From Acidithiobacillales bacterium SM1_46 (GTDB lineage Bacteria > Pseudomonadota > Gammaproteobacteria > Acidiferrobacterales > Sulfurifustaceae), in NCBI GenBank assembly GCA_001304215.1, contig LJVB01000015.1, forward strand, positions 1-43,338: a stretch of 43,338 nt of DNA. Reading direction: 5' to 3'. Both the position numbers and the translations under genes were made by a program. How positions within the stretch are numbered: the first letter of the stretch is position 1; each line of letters begins with the position of its first letter. This document shows positions 28,893-34,764 of the stretch, piece after piece. The notes under the pieces were generated by a model, which did not search any database, had not been told where the DNA came from, and worked only from the letters and a program-made list of their open reading frames with translations.

Positions 28893-30004
28893 TGACCAGC
28901 CTCCTCGGCCACCTGGATGCCACCTTTGCCGCTTAGCTGCTTGCTGCGGTACATGGCCTGGTCGACGCGTCGCACCAGGTCATCGAACGTCGATGCGTGC
29001 GGCGGAGCCACCCCGAGACCGATCGAGACGCTTAGGGCAGTGCCACCGGCGCGCGACCACCGCTGCACCGCGCCCTGCAGACGCTCGGCGGCGCCTCGCG
29101 CCGCAGCGAGATCCGTTTCCGGCATCAACACAACGAACTCATCGCCGCCGTAACGCGCTGCAACATCGCCGGCGCGTATGTTGGCAGTAATGAGACCCGC
29201 AATCTCACGCAGCACCCGGTCGCCGACCGCGTGTCCCTGTCCGTCGTTAACGGCCTTGAAACCATCGAGATCGGCGAACAGCAGCGCCACGGGATGCTGA
29301 TAGCGCACACCGGCTCGCATCAGTGACTCGGCGCGGTCCTCGAGGCCTCGCCGGTTGAGTAGCCCGGTGAGTACGTCCACGTGGCTCAGCGCTTCGAGCT
29401 GCTGGCGATTGCGTTCCAGCCGCGCCATGAGCGAGTAGCTATACAGCACTACGATGACGCCGAGCATCATGAAGAACAAGGTTCCCGGCGATAGCGCGCT
29501 AATGTACTCGGCGAACCGCAAACCGAAAATTACAAATCCCATCAGGAAGCTGCCGACTACTGCTTCGCCAAAGGCACGCATGCCGTAGCGCATGCCGTTA
29601 CCGAGGATGACGGCGAGGAAAACGAAGTAGGTCGGCGAGGCAACGTTAGCGTCCGCGACCACACAAGCCGAAATGCCAACGAGATCCGTCCACATCGCAA
29701 ACCGCCAGCGCCATACGGCGTTCGGCCTGCGCCAGGCATGAAAAAGGGTTGCGGTGGTCACCACGAAATAGACCGCTAGCGCAAGGTCAGCGAAGCGCAG
29801 GAATTCCGCGCTGCGCGCCACGTTCTCGCCGGCATGAAAATAGACGATGCCAAGCACCCAGAAGAGATAGCGCGTCAGGTACTGGGAACGCAGATCCTCC
29901 CAGGTCGCGGTGTGCAGCGAATCCCCGGCGCGCCGGAAGAAGGAACGGCGATCCAACTCCATGCGGCGGTCCGCCGTGCGGCGCCGGTCTGAAGACTCGC
30001 TCAC
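28889..30004 (-). CDS. membrane diguanylate cyclase (GGDEF)
   Basis: The 371-residue protein has five or six N-terminal membrane helices (about residues 45-190) and a cytosolic GGDEF domain (about 205-365). The active GGDEF motif is at 286-290, and an RxxD inhibitory site (RAGD, 277-280) lies five residues before it, so it should make cyclic di-GMP from GTP and show product inhibition. The basic N-terminus ([10 protein letters not shown]) is notable. It overlaps argH and the MazG-like gene by 4 bases each. Co-translation with argH suggests housekeeping-level expression. Confidence 0.92.
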
Positions 30005-31392
30005 TGCGGTTTGCTCGCCAGACGCTCGCGAGCGCGATGTATCGCCGCACGTACCTGAGCGGGCGCGGTGCCGCCAACATGATTGCGGGCCTGCACCGAA
30101 CCCTCCGGCGTCAGGACCGCGTACACATCTGCTCCAATTTGTGGACTGAATTGCTGCAGCTCATTCAGTGGAATCGCGGCGAGATCCCGGCGACTCTCGA
30201 TCGCCAACCGCACCGCACGCCCCACAACCTCATGCGCGTCGCGGAACGCTACCCCTTTGCGCACCAGATAATCAGCCAGATCGGTCGCGGTGGAAAACCC
30301 CGCGGCTGCCGCTTGCGACAGCCGTTCGCGACGCACCTGCATGGCAGGCAACATGTCTGTGTAAACGCGCAGACACCCGAGCACCGTGTCCAGCGTATCG
30401 AACAGCGGCTCCTTATCCTCCTGGTTGTCCTTGTTGTAGGCGAGAGGCTGGGCCTTCATGAGCGTGAGAAGCGCGACAAGATTACCCGTCACCCGCCCGC
30501 TCTTGCCACGCACCAGCTCCGGTACGTCCGGATTCTTCTTCTGCGGCATGATCGAGCTGCCGGTGCAAAACGCGTCCGAGAGCTCGACAAAGGCAAATTG
30601 GCTGGTCGACCAGAGGATCAGTTCCTCGGACATTCGCGACAGATGGGTCATCAACAGCGCGGCCGCGGCGGCAAACTCGATCGCGAAATCACGATCGGAC
30701 ACGGCATCGATCGAATTCTCAGCGACCGTTTCAAAGCCGAGCAGCTTCGCCGTATAGGCCCGATCAACCGGAAAGCTCGTACCCGCCAGCGCGGCACTGC
30801 CAAGTGGCAACACGTTTACGCGCCCGCGGCAGTCACGGAATCGCGCCGCGTCACGCACAAGCATCTCGAACCAGGCAAGGAGGTGGTGACCGAACGTTAC
30901 CGGTTGCGCAACCTGGAGGTGCGTGAAACCGGGCATGACCGTGTCAGCCTCGCGTTCAGCAACGTCGAGCATCGCGAGCTGCAGTCGCCGAATGGCCGCG
31001 AGCACCGTATCGATGCCATCGCGCAGATAGAGTCGGATATCAGTCGCCACCTGGTCGTTGCGCGAGCGCCCCGTGTGCAGCTTCTTGCCGGCGTCGCCGA
31101 TGCGATCGATGAGGCGCGCCTCGATGTTCATGTGCACGTCTTCAAGCGCCACACTCCAGGCGAACGCGCCGCTCTCAATCTCGGCCTCGATCTGTTTCAG
31201 GCCCTTCGCAATGGCATCGCGCTCGGTTTCCGTGAGCACACCGACATGCGCGAGCATTTGCGCGTGGGCAAGCGAGCCCAATATGTCATGGCGATAGAGG
31301 CGCTGGTCGAATCCGACCGAGGCGGTGAAGGTCTCGACGAAGGCATCGGTGGCTTCAGTGAAGCGACCGCCCCAAGGTTTGTCTTTGTTCAT
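30001..31392 (-). CDS. argH: argininosuccinate lyase
   Basis: The 463-residue fumarase-superfamily enzyme splits argininosuccinate into arginine and fumarate. It starts [16 protein letters not shown] and carries the signature [12 protein letters not shown] and the [14 protein letters not shown] loop. The frame is open to 31428, but the ATG at 31392 fits the family start. Transcription is leftward into the GGDEF and MazG-like genes. In Pseudomonas argH also lies next to algZ, as here. Confidence 0.96.
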
Positions 31393-31487
31393 GCGCTCCC
31401 ATGCACTCCCAGGCGCCGCCCGCCGCACGCAGATTTCGCGCGGCGCTGCCGCCTATCCGTAACCCGCCAACGATTATCGGTATGAGA

Positions 31488-31516
31488 TTGTGACGGCTGG
31501 CAGGCCACGCTAGTTT
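31488..31516 (+). promoter_or_regulatory. candidate promoter of the small RNA
   Basis: TTGTGA (31488-31493, four of six) and TAGTTT (31511-31516, three of six) are separated by exactly 17 bases. A start near 31523 would coincide with the first arm of the RNA structure. Weak by sequence alone. Confidence 0.35.
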
Positions 31517-31522
31517 GGGGAT

Positions 31523-31619
31523 GAGAGTTAGCCTGATTCGGACTCTCCTTTGTGCACCCCCACCCCGAATTCCGAATCAGGTCTTCGGTCCCCCCGGCAA
31601 CCCCGGGGGGTCTTTTTTT
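31523..31619 (+). ncRNA. candidate small regulatory RNA, about 97 nt
   Basis: The stretch carries two competing structures. Hairpin A uses arms 31523-31528 (GAGAGT) and 31542-31547 (ACTCTC). Hairpin B uses perfect 11-base arms 31532-31542 and 31571-31581. They cannot both form without a pseudoknot. The 28-base loop of hairpin B is strongly C-rich (CACCCCCACCCC), like target-binding loops of some proteobacterial sRNAs. A strong intrinsic terminator with a long T-run ends it. No protein-like frame fits. It could instead be a leader that attenuates the kinase operon, but the terminator lies about 195 bases before that gene. Confidence 0.55.
31590..31619 (+). terminator. intrinsic terminator of the small RNA
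   Basis: An 8-base GC stem (arms 31590-31597 and 31603-31610, CCCCCCGG / CCGGGGGG) with a five-base loop is followed by TCTTTTTTT. This is a textbook rho-independent terminator, oriented rightward, with no gene of its own upstream on that strand. That is the main support for an sRNA. Confidence 0.88.
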
Positions 31620-31633
31620 ATAGGCAATTGCGT

Positions 31634-31647
31634 TCAAGTATACTTGA
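31634..31647. repeat. 14-base palindrome (possible operator)
   Basis: TCAAGTATACTTGA is a perfect palindrome and contains a TATACT -10-like box. It lies 15 bases after the small-RNA terminator and upstream of the kinase operon. It may be a binding site for a dimeric regulator over a promoter. Confidence 0.5.
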
Positions 31648-31814
31648 GCGGTTACACAAAGAAATGGCGCCCCCACGCCAACGCCCGGCAGCAACGCGCT
31701 GATTTATTATACTTAGCCTCATTGTGAGCGCCCCGGCCAGCTGTCACGGCCGCGGTTCCGATCTGCCCGCCGTCTACCGCACGCAGGGGAACCGGCCTCA
31801 CTTCCAGCAAACTC

Positions 31815-32867
31815 ATGGCCAAGCCCTCCGTAACCCAGAAGAGTTTCTTGCCGGACTTCGGCTCGTTCGGCATGGCCATCCGGCTGGTGCTGCTCGCCGA
31901 GTTGCTCGCCATCATCATCACCATCGGGCGCAATGCGAGCTTTGACGAGAACGCCTGGCAGGACTTCAACCTGCTCGCCGCCTTCGCGCTGATCATCTCG
32001 TTCTGCAGCGTCCTGGTTCTCAAAATCGTGGCGCCGCTGCTCGCCCGACTGTCGGCGGCCATGAGCTCGGTAGTGGTTGTGCTCCTCGTGCTGGTGGTCA
32101 CCGCGCTCGGTACGGATCTGCTCATCTTTGCGCTGCACGACCTAGGACTGGTCGCCGAACGCTGGCCGCCCTGGCGACAGTCACTGATCGTTCGCTCTCT
32201 CATTATTGCAGCGGTGGTAACGGTCCTCGGACTGCGCTATCTGTTCCTGCAACACCAGAGCGAACTCGACAGCCGCTCGCGCCAGGAAGCAAAGATGCAG
32301 GCGCTGCAATCGCGCATCCGACCACATTTCCTGTTCAATAGCCTCAACAGTGTTGCCTCGCTGACACGCTCAGACCCCACGCGGGCCGAGGCAGTGCTGC
32401 ACGATCTGGCCGACCTGTTTCGGGTGCTGCTGGCGGACGCACGCAAGCTGGTACCAATCTCGGCCGAGCGCGAAATCTCGCGCCAGTACCTTGAAATCGA
32501 GAAGATCCGACTCGGCGACCGCCTGCAGATCAAGTGGAACGTTGCGGACATTCCCCGGTCTGCGCAGATCCCGGCGCTTACCCTGCAACCGCTGCTCGAG
32601 AATGCCATTTATCACGGCATCGAGCCGCGGTTCGCGGGGGGCATGATCCGCATTGACATGTGGGTCGAAGGCGACCTGCTGAACATCATGATCACCAACC
32701 CATTACCGGACGTGCGCAAGAACGTCCACGGCAAGGGCAACCGTCTGGCGCAGGAGAATATTCGCCAGCGGCTTGTCACCCAATTCGGCGAGCGTGCCAA
32801 CATGCAGGCCTTCGAGGAGGGCGGCATGTATCACGTCAAGGTCAAGATGCCAATCGTTCACGGATGA
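31815..32867 (+). CDS. LytS/AlgZ-type sensor kinase, first copy
   Basis: The 350-residue inner-membrane kinase of the His_kinase (PF06580) family has four membrane helices (about residues 22-140). The cytosolic part has phospho-acceptor His171 (SRIRPHFLFNSLNSV) and an ATP-binding N-box (LQPLLENAIYHGIEP). It should phosphorylate the LytTR regulator at 34015. The N-terminus FLPDFGSFGMAIRLVLLAELLAI is similar to AlgZ/FimS of Pseudomonas. A second kinase of the same family follows with a 4-base ATGA overlap. The ATG at 31815 was used, and no strong ribosome site stands out. Confidence 0.9.
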   Translation: MAKPSVTQKSFLPDFGSFGMAIRLVLLAELLAIIITIGRNASFDENAWQDFNLLAAFALIISFCSVLVLKIVAPLLARLSAAMSSVVVVLLVLVVTALGTDLLIFALHDLGLVAERWPPWRQSLIVRSLIIAAVVTVLGLRYLFLQHQSELDSRSRQEAKMQALQSRIRPHFLFNSLNSVASLTRSDPTRAEAVLHDLADLFRVLLADARKLVPISAEREISRQYLEIEKIRLGDRLQIKWNVADIPRSAQIPALTLQPLLENAIYHGIEPRFAGGMIRIDMWVEGDLLNIMITNPLPDVRKNVHGKGNRLAQENIRQRLVTQFGERANMQAFEEGGMYHVKVKMPIVHG

Positions 32868-34018
32868 GCACGCCGCCTGCCACGCTACCACCCTGGATCG
32901 CCCGCCTGCGCGAGCGTGCCGAACGGATCGAGGCCAGTCTCAACCGCCGGCTGTCTGCAGCCGCGCGTTCTGCGGAAGATGAGGGAGGCTTCCTGCCGAA
33001 CTTCTGCCGCGGTTGGGTGGTCTTCAATGCCGCGATTGCAGCTGAACTGCTCGCCGTCCTGGTCACTTTGCTCATGCCGCGGCAGATCCTTAGCGCGAGC
33101 GCCGGACAAGACCTGTTGCTGGTGTCGGTGTTCGTGCAGTGGGTCGCGTTGACCGGCACAGCGGTGCTGTGCCTCGCGCGCAAGACGCTCAACCGGTTGC
33201 CGAATATTCGGGCGCTGGGAGCGGCATTTCTGCTGCTGCTGCTCAACACCTTCGTGGTGAGTGAGCTCGCCATCTGGCTGCTCTGGCTGCTCGGGCAGAT
33301 AAAGACCGCGCGGCCGGACTGGTACACAGACTTCCATCTGCTCACGCTCACGGTAAGCGCCATTGCGAATGGCTTGCTGCTTCGCTATTTCCTCGCCAAG
33401 CATGAGCTGCGCCAGCGCGTGCAGTCCGAAGCTCGCGCCAGAATGCAGGCCCTGCAGTCGCGCATCCGGCCACATTTCGTCTTCAACACACTGAACATCA
33501 TCGCCTCGCTGACCCGCTCCGACCCGAAGAAGGCTGAAACGGCGATCGAGGATATGGCTGAACTCTTTCGCATGATGCTGTCTCAAGACGAAAATCTGGT
33601 ACCAGTGAAGAATGAAATCGACGTGGCCAACAAGTACCTGGCGCTCGAGCAGCTGCGCCTTGATAGCCGCCTGCAGGTACAATGGGACGTCGGCAAGTTC
33701 CCGCGCAAGGCGGTGATGCCGGTGCTGACGCTTCAGCCTCTGCTTGAAAACGCCATCCGCCATGGCATCGAGAACCTGGCGAGTGGCGGAACGGTCGAGG
33801 CGCGGCTATGGGAAAACGCCGACCGAATTCATATTCGCGTGATCAACCCGCTGCCGCCGCCGCGCACACGGCGCAATGTGCCGTCCCCCAGCGAGGGGCT
33901 CGATACCATCCGCCAACGCTTCCGCAATCAGTACGGAGAAGCGGCCACGCTCGAAACCGAGGAGCGTGAGGGACAATTTATTGTGAATGTGGTGCTGCCG
34001 ACCCGGGGAGACGAATGA
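32864..34018 (+). CDS. LytS/AlgZ-type sensor kinase, second copy
   Basis: The 384-residue paralogue of the preceding kinase has an N-terminal charged section (about residues 1-42), FLPNFCRGWVVFNAAIAAELLAV as first helix, and three further helices. It then has His204 (SRIRPHFVFNTLNIIASL) and an N-box (LQPLLENAIRHGIEN). Its core is closely similar to the first copy (ARMQALQSRIRPHF, LTRSDP). The ATG at 32864 was chosen because it overlaps the first kinase's stop. The frame's upstream part (to 32660) is not protein-like. It overlaps the regulator start too, so all three genes are translationally coupled. Confidence 0.9.
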   Translation: MSTPPATLPPWIARLRERAERIEASLNRRLSAAARSAEDEGGFLPNFCRGWVVFNAAIAAELLAVLVTLLMPRQILSASAGQDLLLVSVFVQWVALTGTAVLCLARKTLNRLPNIRALGAAFLLLLLNTFVVSELAIWLLWLLGQIKTARPDWYTDFHLLTLTVSAIANGLLLRYFLAKHELRQRVQSEARARMQALQSRIRPHFVFNTLNIIASLTRSDPKKAETAIEDMAELFRMMLSQDENLVPVKNEIDVANKYLALEQLRLDSRLQVQWDVGKFPRKAVMPVLTLQPLLENAIRHGIENLASGGTVEARLWENADRIHIRVINPLPPPRTRRNVPSPSEGLDTIRQRFRNQYGEAATLETEEREGQFIVNVVLPTRGDE

Positions 34019-34764
34019 TGAGAGTGCTGATCGTCGACGACGAGAAACTCGCGCGCGAGCGCCTGAAGGAGCTACTCAACGACATTGGTGGCTACACGGT
34101 TGTGGGTGAGGCCATGAATGGGGCCGAGGCGGTCGAAAAGGCTTCGGAGCTCAATCCAGATGTGCTGCTGATGGACATCCGCATGCCAGGAATGGATGGG
34201 CTGGAGGCGGCGATGCATTTGATGGGCATGGAGAATCCACCGAGCGTGATCTTTACCACCGCCTACGACCAACACGCGCTCGACGCATTCGAAGTCAATG
34301 CCGTCGACTATCTGCTGAAACCGATCCGAAAGGACCGGCTTGCCAACGCCCTTACCAAAGCGAAGAAACTCACGCAGAAGCAGGCGCGCGAGATTTCCCA
34401 GGCACGCGCGGAGCCGCAGGCACGCACCCACATCAGCGTGCATTTGCGCGGCAACATACGCCTGGTACCGTTGCCGGATGTTGTATATTTTCTTGCGGAC
34501 TCCAAGTACGTCGCCGTGCGCACCCGCGCCGAGGAGCACCTCATCGAGGACTCGCTGGTGAATCTCGAGAAAGAGTTTGGTGACCGCTTTCTGCGAATTC
34601 ACCGCAATGCACTGGTCGCCACCCAATCGATCAAAGGAATCGAGAAGAGCCCCGCTGGCACCTGGCAGGTATCGTTCAAGGAACTCGATACGCGACTCGA
34701 CGTGAGCCGACGACACACCGCCGCCGTGCGTCGCTGGGCCCGTAGCCGACCAAAGGGCGGCTAG
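34015..34764 (+). CDS. algR: LytTR response regulator, AlgR-like
   Basis: The 249-residue protein has a receiver domain (residues 1-120) with phospho-site Asp54 (VLLMDIRMPG), and a C-terminal LytTR DNA-binding domain (about 140-245; HISVHLRGNIRLVPLPDVVYFLADSKYV, FLRIHRNALV). It is the only regulator beside two AlgZ-like kinases. AlgR controls alginate, twitching and virulence genes in Pseudomonas. Here only the family and neighbourhood argue for the name. It starts at 34015 or 34018 (adjacent ATGs). Confidence 0.88.
   Translation: MMRVLIVDDEKLARERLKELLNDIGGYTVVGEAMNGAEAVEKASELNPDVLLMDIRMPGMDGLEAAMHLMGMENPPSVIFTTAYDQHALDAFEVNAVDYLLKPIRKDRLANALTKAKKLTQKQAREISQARAEPQARTHISVHLRGNIRLVPLPDVVYFLADSKYVAVRTRAEEHLIEDSLVNLEKEFGDRFLRIHRNALVATQSIKGIEKSPAGTWQVSFKELDTRLDVSRRHTAAVRRWARSRPKGG

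Follow-up and report, generated by a model that had tools for sequence, protein, structure and literature searches.

Among the described bacterial sRNAs, the trans-acting sX13 of Xanthomonas (RF02232) offers the closest parallel to the locus analysed here. This RNA of about 115 nt carries C-rich loops through which it represses mRNAs that bear G-rich motifs close to their start, and its deletion raises the level of algR mRNA, among others (PMC3771888). A weak covariance similarity also exists to anti-hemB (Burkholderia RNA 7, RF02837), which likewise combines a hairpin with a GC-rich terminator. In Pseudomonas aeruginosa, transcription of RsmY and RsmZ rises upon over-expression of algR (PMC4064291), and these RNAs bind RsmA via GGA motifs. 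LytTR regulators recognise sites of two repeats of 9-11 nt with 11-13 nt between them, which share no common sequence (PMC4847170); in one class, the repeats are mostly 12 bp apart and often located ~10 bp upstream of the -35 element (PMC6193735).

The window, i.e. the whole stretch of 43,338 nt from Acidithiobacillales bacterium SM1_46, contains a candidate sRNA gene between argH and an algZ-algZ-algR operon (Table 1). Homology to sX13 is not detectable (11.1 bits, with the cut-off at 50), and whereas sX13 possesses three hairpins and lies at polA, the RNA described here has one main hairpin plus a terminator and resides at the argH-algZ junction in nearly all homologues, a neighbourhood that does not place it with sX13. 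The similarity to anti-hemB reaches 17.6 bits where the cut-off is 49.5, and the neighbourhood is not that of hemB. Unlike the Rsm RNAs, the loop contains no GGA. The promoter resembles the two-repeat promoters of LytTR regulators (the YpdB target, the LRS family) in its repeats of 21-bp period immediately upstream of the -35 element, but the output here is an sRNA and the double site is apparently the only one of its kind in the genome. A search of the window against Rfam 15 returned no match at the gathering score; the near-misses Hrs10, Phe_leader, Atu_C10, anti-hemB and sX13 fell far below their cut-offs and were treated as chance. The literature search yielded no sRNA described together with argH and fimS or algZ, so that, as far as these two sources reach, the original prediction of an undescribed sRNA is supported. 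The RNA is rated as a new family within a class already known, that of regulatory sRNAs with a C-rich loop, and its promoter is unusual. This apparently new family is all but universal in the window's order, the Acidiferrobacterales, environmental sulfur oxidisers that include the cultured Sulfuricaulis limicola (2,864,672 bp) and Sulfurifustis variabilis (3,958,814 bp) (PMC5024460).

Table 1. Features at and around the argH-algZ junction of the window.
Feature	Positions	Strand	Remarks
argH, argininosuccinate lyase, divergent neighbour	30001-31392	-	Pfam PF00206 and PF14698
Promoter repeat A, CCGCCTATCCGTA (consensus CCGCCYRTCCGTR)	31449-31461	+	conserved; precedes repeat B by exactly 21 bp
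Promoter repeat B, ACGATTATCGGTA (consensus CCGRTTATCGGTA)	31470-31482	+	conserved with repeat A
-35 element, TTGTGA (relatives TTGTTG or TTGAGN)	31488-31493	+	conserved; 17-bp spacer in most homologues
-10 element, TAGTTT (TATGTT in many relatives)	31511-31516	+	conserved
Predicted small RNA gene	31523-31619	+	transcript of ~97 nt; covariance-model match 31524-31619, 95.9 bits; start inferred from promoter
Main hairpin, 5' arm, CCTGATTCGGA	31532-31542	+	covaries with 3' arm
C-rich loop, 28 nt	31543-31570	+	alignment of order homologues
Shine-Dalgarno-complementary part of loop, CTCTCCTTT	31543-31551	+	
Near-invariant loop core, TGCACCCCCACCCCGAA	31553-31569	+	alignment of order homologues
Main hairpin, 3' arm, TCCGAATCAGG	31571-31581	+	covaries with 5' arm
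Intrinsic terminator	31590-31619	+	stem-loop conserved, its sequence varies
Promoter-like TATACT, possibly for algZ	31639-31644	+	consensus scan; downstream of terminator
algZ-like histidine kinase 1	31815-32867	+	Pfam PF06580
Candidate sRNA activator: algR-like response regulator carrying a LytTR DNA-binding domain	34018-34764	+	Pfam PF00072 and PF04397

Structure, conservation and distribution of the RNA

The predicted transcript folds with -40.9 kcal/mol (z -3.7), a value equalled by 1 of 200 shuffled sequences. The full interval of 132 nt (31488-31619) folds no better than its shuffles (z -0.5) because it includes promoter DNA. The original prediction described a perfect 11-base inverted repeat around a C-rich loop, and this repeat is indeed present, as is the terminator, a stem-loop (31590-31610) of the form CCCCCCGG-CAACC-CCGGGGGG with a GC stem of 8 bp, followed by the T run TCTTTTTTT. 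The terminator was described as following no gene on its strand, which is correct, since argH is encoded on the opposite strand and no forward gene ends there. A second, mutually exclusive hairpin (GAGAGU/ACUCUC) had also been proposed; it could form fully in 2 of the 36 aligned homologues and is not conserved.

In this alignment of 36 homologues from within the order, seven base pairs have changed on both sides, 97.6% of the cells are paired and none of 500 shuffles performs as well. Variation is concentrated in the paired arms, and the loop core GCACCCCCACCC is almost unchanged (nearly invariant as TGCACCCCCACCC across the alignment), a pattern that would be expected of a molecule whose functional part is the loop; the left loop half CTCTCCTT is altered to TTGTCCTT in family f7. 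Sequence searches with blastn detect the stem-loop in most relatives (E down to 9e-30), and the covariance search of relatives at the argH-algZ junction that was suggested with the original prediction succeeded, with covarying arms and matches in 53 of the 57 Acidiferrobacterales genomes (33 of the 34 good ones). In a class-wide sample of 369 genomes, 3 contain the exact core GTGCACCCCCACCCC, and each of these belongs to the window's own family. Nearly all homologues share the order of divergent argH, sRNA and algZ on the sRNA strand. Loci L037 and L007, which are interrupted by a contig end or gap, are exceptions, whereas genome G003, whose algZ seemed unlinked, was rejected as an exception owing to 100-N gaps beside both the sRNA and algZ.

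Related copies extend beyond the order. Most genomes of f64, a family of another order (G113, G249, G353 and others), carry two tandem copies at the argH-algZ junction, and a single copy is found at the same place in two of the four genomes of a third group, f116 (G379 and G427). On a separate contig (L024), a partial match lies directly upstream of algZ. The ACCCCC core is largely kept in the other groups, and adding those of f64 to the alignment strengthens the covariation (10 of 13 pairs changed on both sides). As a control, 23 argH-algZ junctions from other groups gave no match to the covariance model and no convincing hairpin plus terminator on the algZ strand, with a short T run flagged in one of them (L140). 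Among 299 genomes drawn from across the phylum, the search recovered only the genome of the window itself, along with two weak hits elsewhere; plasmid and phage records contained no match. Taken with the promoter described below, the structure, covariation, conserved terminator and homologues across the order and beyond support the sRNA reading. With its own conserved promoter and terminator and no conserved reading frame, the forward-strand segment looks like an independent sRNA gene.

The promoter module and its candidate regulator

The conserved promoter module was not part of the original prediction. It comprises repeats A and B, a gap of a few bp (5 bp in the window), the -35 element, 17 bp and the -10 element, in agreement with the transcription start proposed near 31523. 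Almost all of the 40 homologues checked within the order are preceded by the two repeats at a distance of exactly 21 bp from each other; in L041 and L042 the repeat module is unrecognised or poorly aligned. The whole module is located further upstream in families f2 and f6, which lengthens the predicted 5' tail. S. limicola was scanned over 2.4 Mb with a weight matrix built from the module: the sRNA promoter scored 36.6 bits and the next best site, which is intragenic, 20.1, and a half-site version of the matrix gave 29.6 versus 15.5.

In the other groups, most related copies are preceded, at a distance of ~80-95 bp, by a module with the same 21-bp spacing, which the matrix detects more weakly. 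It scores 24.1 in G379 and was recognised by eye in G427. In f64, the scores (about -2 to 13.6) overlap those of control loci, and the argument is carried by position instead, as the module mostly ranks first among the matches of its 3-kb locus, at a constant distance from each copy. None of the control junctions has the module at the corresponding position. A 21-bp period did not stand out in a generic autocorrelation test of the upstream regions; the period rests on the aligned repeats.

Direct repeats of this period so close to the -35 element follow the layout of LytTR sites. Combined with an AlgR that carries a LytTR domain and is encoded in the adjacent operon, this layout makes AlgR the first candidate regulator. 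The P. aeruginosa AlgR box CCGTTCGTC (PMC4064291) is poorly matched, the best half-site CCGATAATC agreeing by eye at 6 of 9 positions. This lowers the case for AlgR but does not exclude it, because LytTR sites have no sequence in common. On balance, control of the sRNA promoter by AlgR is a serious possibility whose chances are put at somewhat below even.

Ahead of algR, the operon encodes tandem AlgZ-like kinases (31815-34018) that are ~38% identical. Both are mostly present in families f1, f2, f3, f5 and f7, and one alone occurs in several f4 genomes.

The C-rich loop and its possible mode of action

In the proposed mechanism, the regulated promoter would give rise to an RNA with a short 5' tail, a long hairpin and a Rho-independent terminator, and the 28-nt loop would most likely serve as an antisense finger acting in trans. 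One loop half (CUCUCCUUU) could pair with Shine-Dalgarno sequences and the other (CACCCCCACCCC) with G-rich mRNA patches, thereby blocking a limited set of mRNAs at the level of translation in the manner of sX13. Transcription would probably be switched by a regulator bound to the two 21-bp-phased repeats, with AlgR as the leading candidate. Considered as a whole, an sRNA with its own promoter and a trans-acting antisense loop, probably switched by AlgR, is the best available explanation and is regarded as moderately probable.

The C-rich motif of the right half lies in the loop of a hairpin that is backed by covariation, and this half is complementary to GGGGTGGGGGTG. Targets were sought in S. 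limicola (2.4 Mb, 2144 genes predicted with a simple script). Complements of left-half 7-mers were found at 73 ribosome sites compared to 9 in coding controls, an enrichment that any anti-Shine-Dalgarno sequence would show. Complements of the right half (C5/C4) were not enriched at ribosome sites in the same 2.4 Mb, and the best duplex energies equalled those of shuffled loops. Pairing of the loop with the starts of algZ or argH gave no consistent signal. The suggestion that the RNA regulates G-rich ribosome sites is thus plausible by analogy with sX13, while the target search contributes nothing beyond the expected Shine-Dalgarno-like half.

A more specific and rather speculative version of the antisense account would make this RNA a dedicated output of AlgZR: AlgR, acting at a double site that occurs a single time in each genome, would drive one antisense sRNA with a C-rich loop, which would mediate a share of the system's regulation, in at least three gammaproteobacterial orders and with a duplication in one of them. 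The logic would be comparable to that of Gac-Rsm, but with antisense action. If AlgR control is true, AlgZR would have an RNA arm outside Pseudomonas and C-rich-loop silencing would extend to another gammaproteobacterial branch. The conserved and apparently single-copy control site makes both the regulator and the targets directly testable.

The near-invariance of a loop stretch of ~17 nt could alternatively signify protein binding. The loop may act as a decoy that titrates a protein specific for C-rich single-stranded RNA, as RsmY and RsmZ titrate RsmA; its core is more constant than expected for a finger that pairs with many mRNAs, and the S. limicola search produced no enriched mRNA partner. 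This possibility is considered unlikely: each RNA offers only one such site, and the lack of a GGA motif speaks against a decoy for RsmA/CsrA. It also counts against a decoy that, to our knowledge, no gammaproteobacterial regulator is specific for C-rich loops.

Less probable still is the other reading offered in the original prediction, a leader for the kinase operon. In this model, transcription would start at the sRNA promoter, and the terminator of a leader or attenuator preceding algZ-algZ-algR would be conditionally read through into algZ. Such a role would fit the conserved placement of the RNA, which immediately precedes algZ on its strand in nearly all homologues. However, the RNA has its own promoter and a strong, complete terminator with no conserved anti-terminator, given the poor conservation of the alternative hairpin. 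The stretch from the terminator to algZ also contains a promoter-like site, and in many homologues the corresponding position holds AGTATACT, which is similar to TATACT. Furthermore, each tandem copy in f64 has its own module and terminator, 23 other genomes have the junction without the sRNA, and algZ is absent within ~2 kb downstream in L038 and ~1.2 kb away in L043, both exceptions to the shared gene order. A short peptide with incidental RNA structure is extremely improbable even though mechanical open reading frames overlap the region (31515-31727, forward; 31389-31694, reverse), since length differences of 1-3 nt in loop and terminator break any frame around a fixed loop core and no conserved combination of start codon and ribosome site was apparent, in line with the earlier statement that no protein-like frame is present.

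Additional observations on C-rich RNAs and argH-algZ junctions

Weak model matches elsewhere in the class (24-30 bits, e.g. L060, L062 and L067) are not at argH-algZ and were excluded from the homologues. These three are near polA or a yihA-like GTPase gene and are perhaps independent sRNAs; Spot 42 and sX13 are located near polA or a yihA-like gene in other bacteria. Two genomes from another class of the phylum contain a hairpin with the loop CCCTCCTCCCCTCCC and a terminator away from argH (L274, 1501-1588, reverse strand; L275, 1501-1588, forward strand), possibly an unrelated C-rich sRNA. The window's own genome (G000) encodes Hfq, with two family matches over the cut-off (C82:21945-22133 and C69:2219-2392), which counts in favour of the antisense account. 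In G353, two argH-sRNA-sRNA-algZ loci are present on different contigs (L058 and L106/L107), for which a mixed assembly is more likely than a duplication. Finally, most short junctions of other gammaproteobacteria (L126-L151) show AGTATA close to the argH start, which is probably the -10 element of argH read on the opposite strand.
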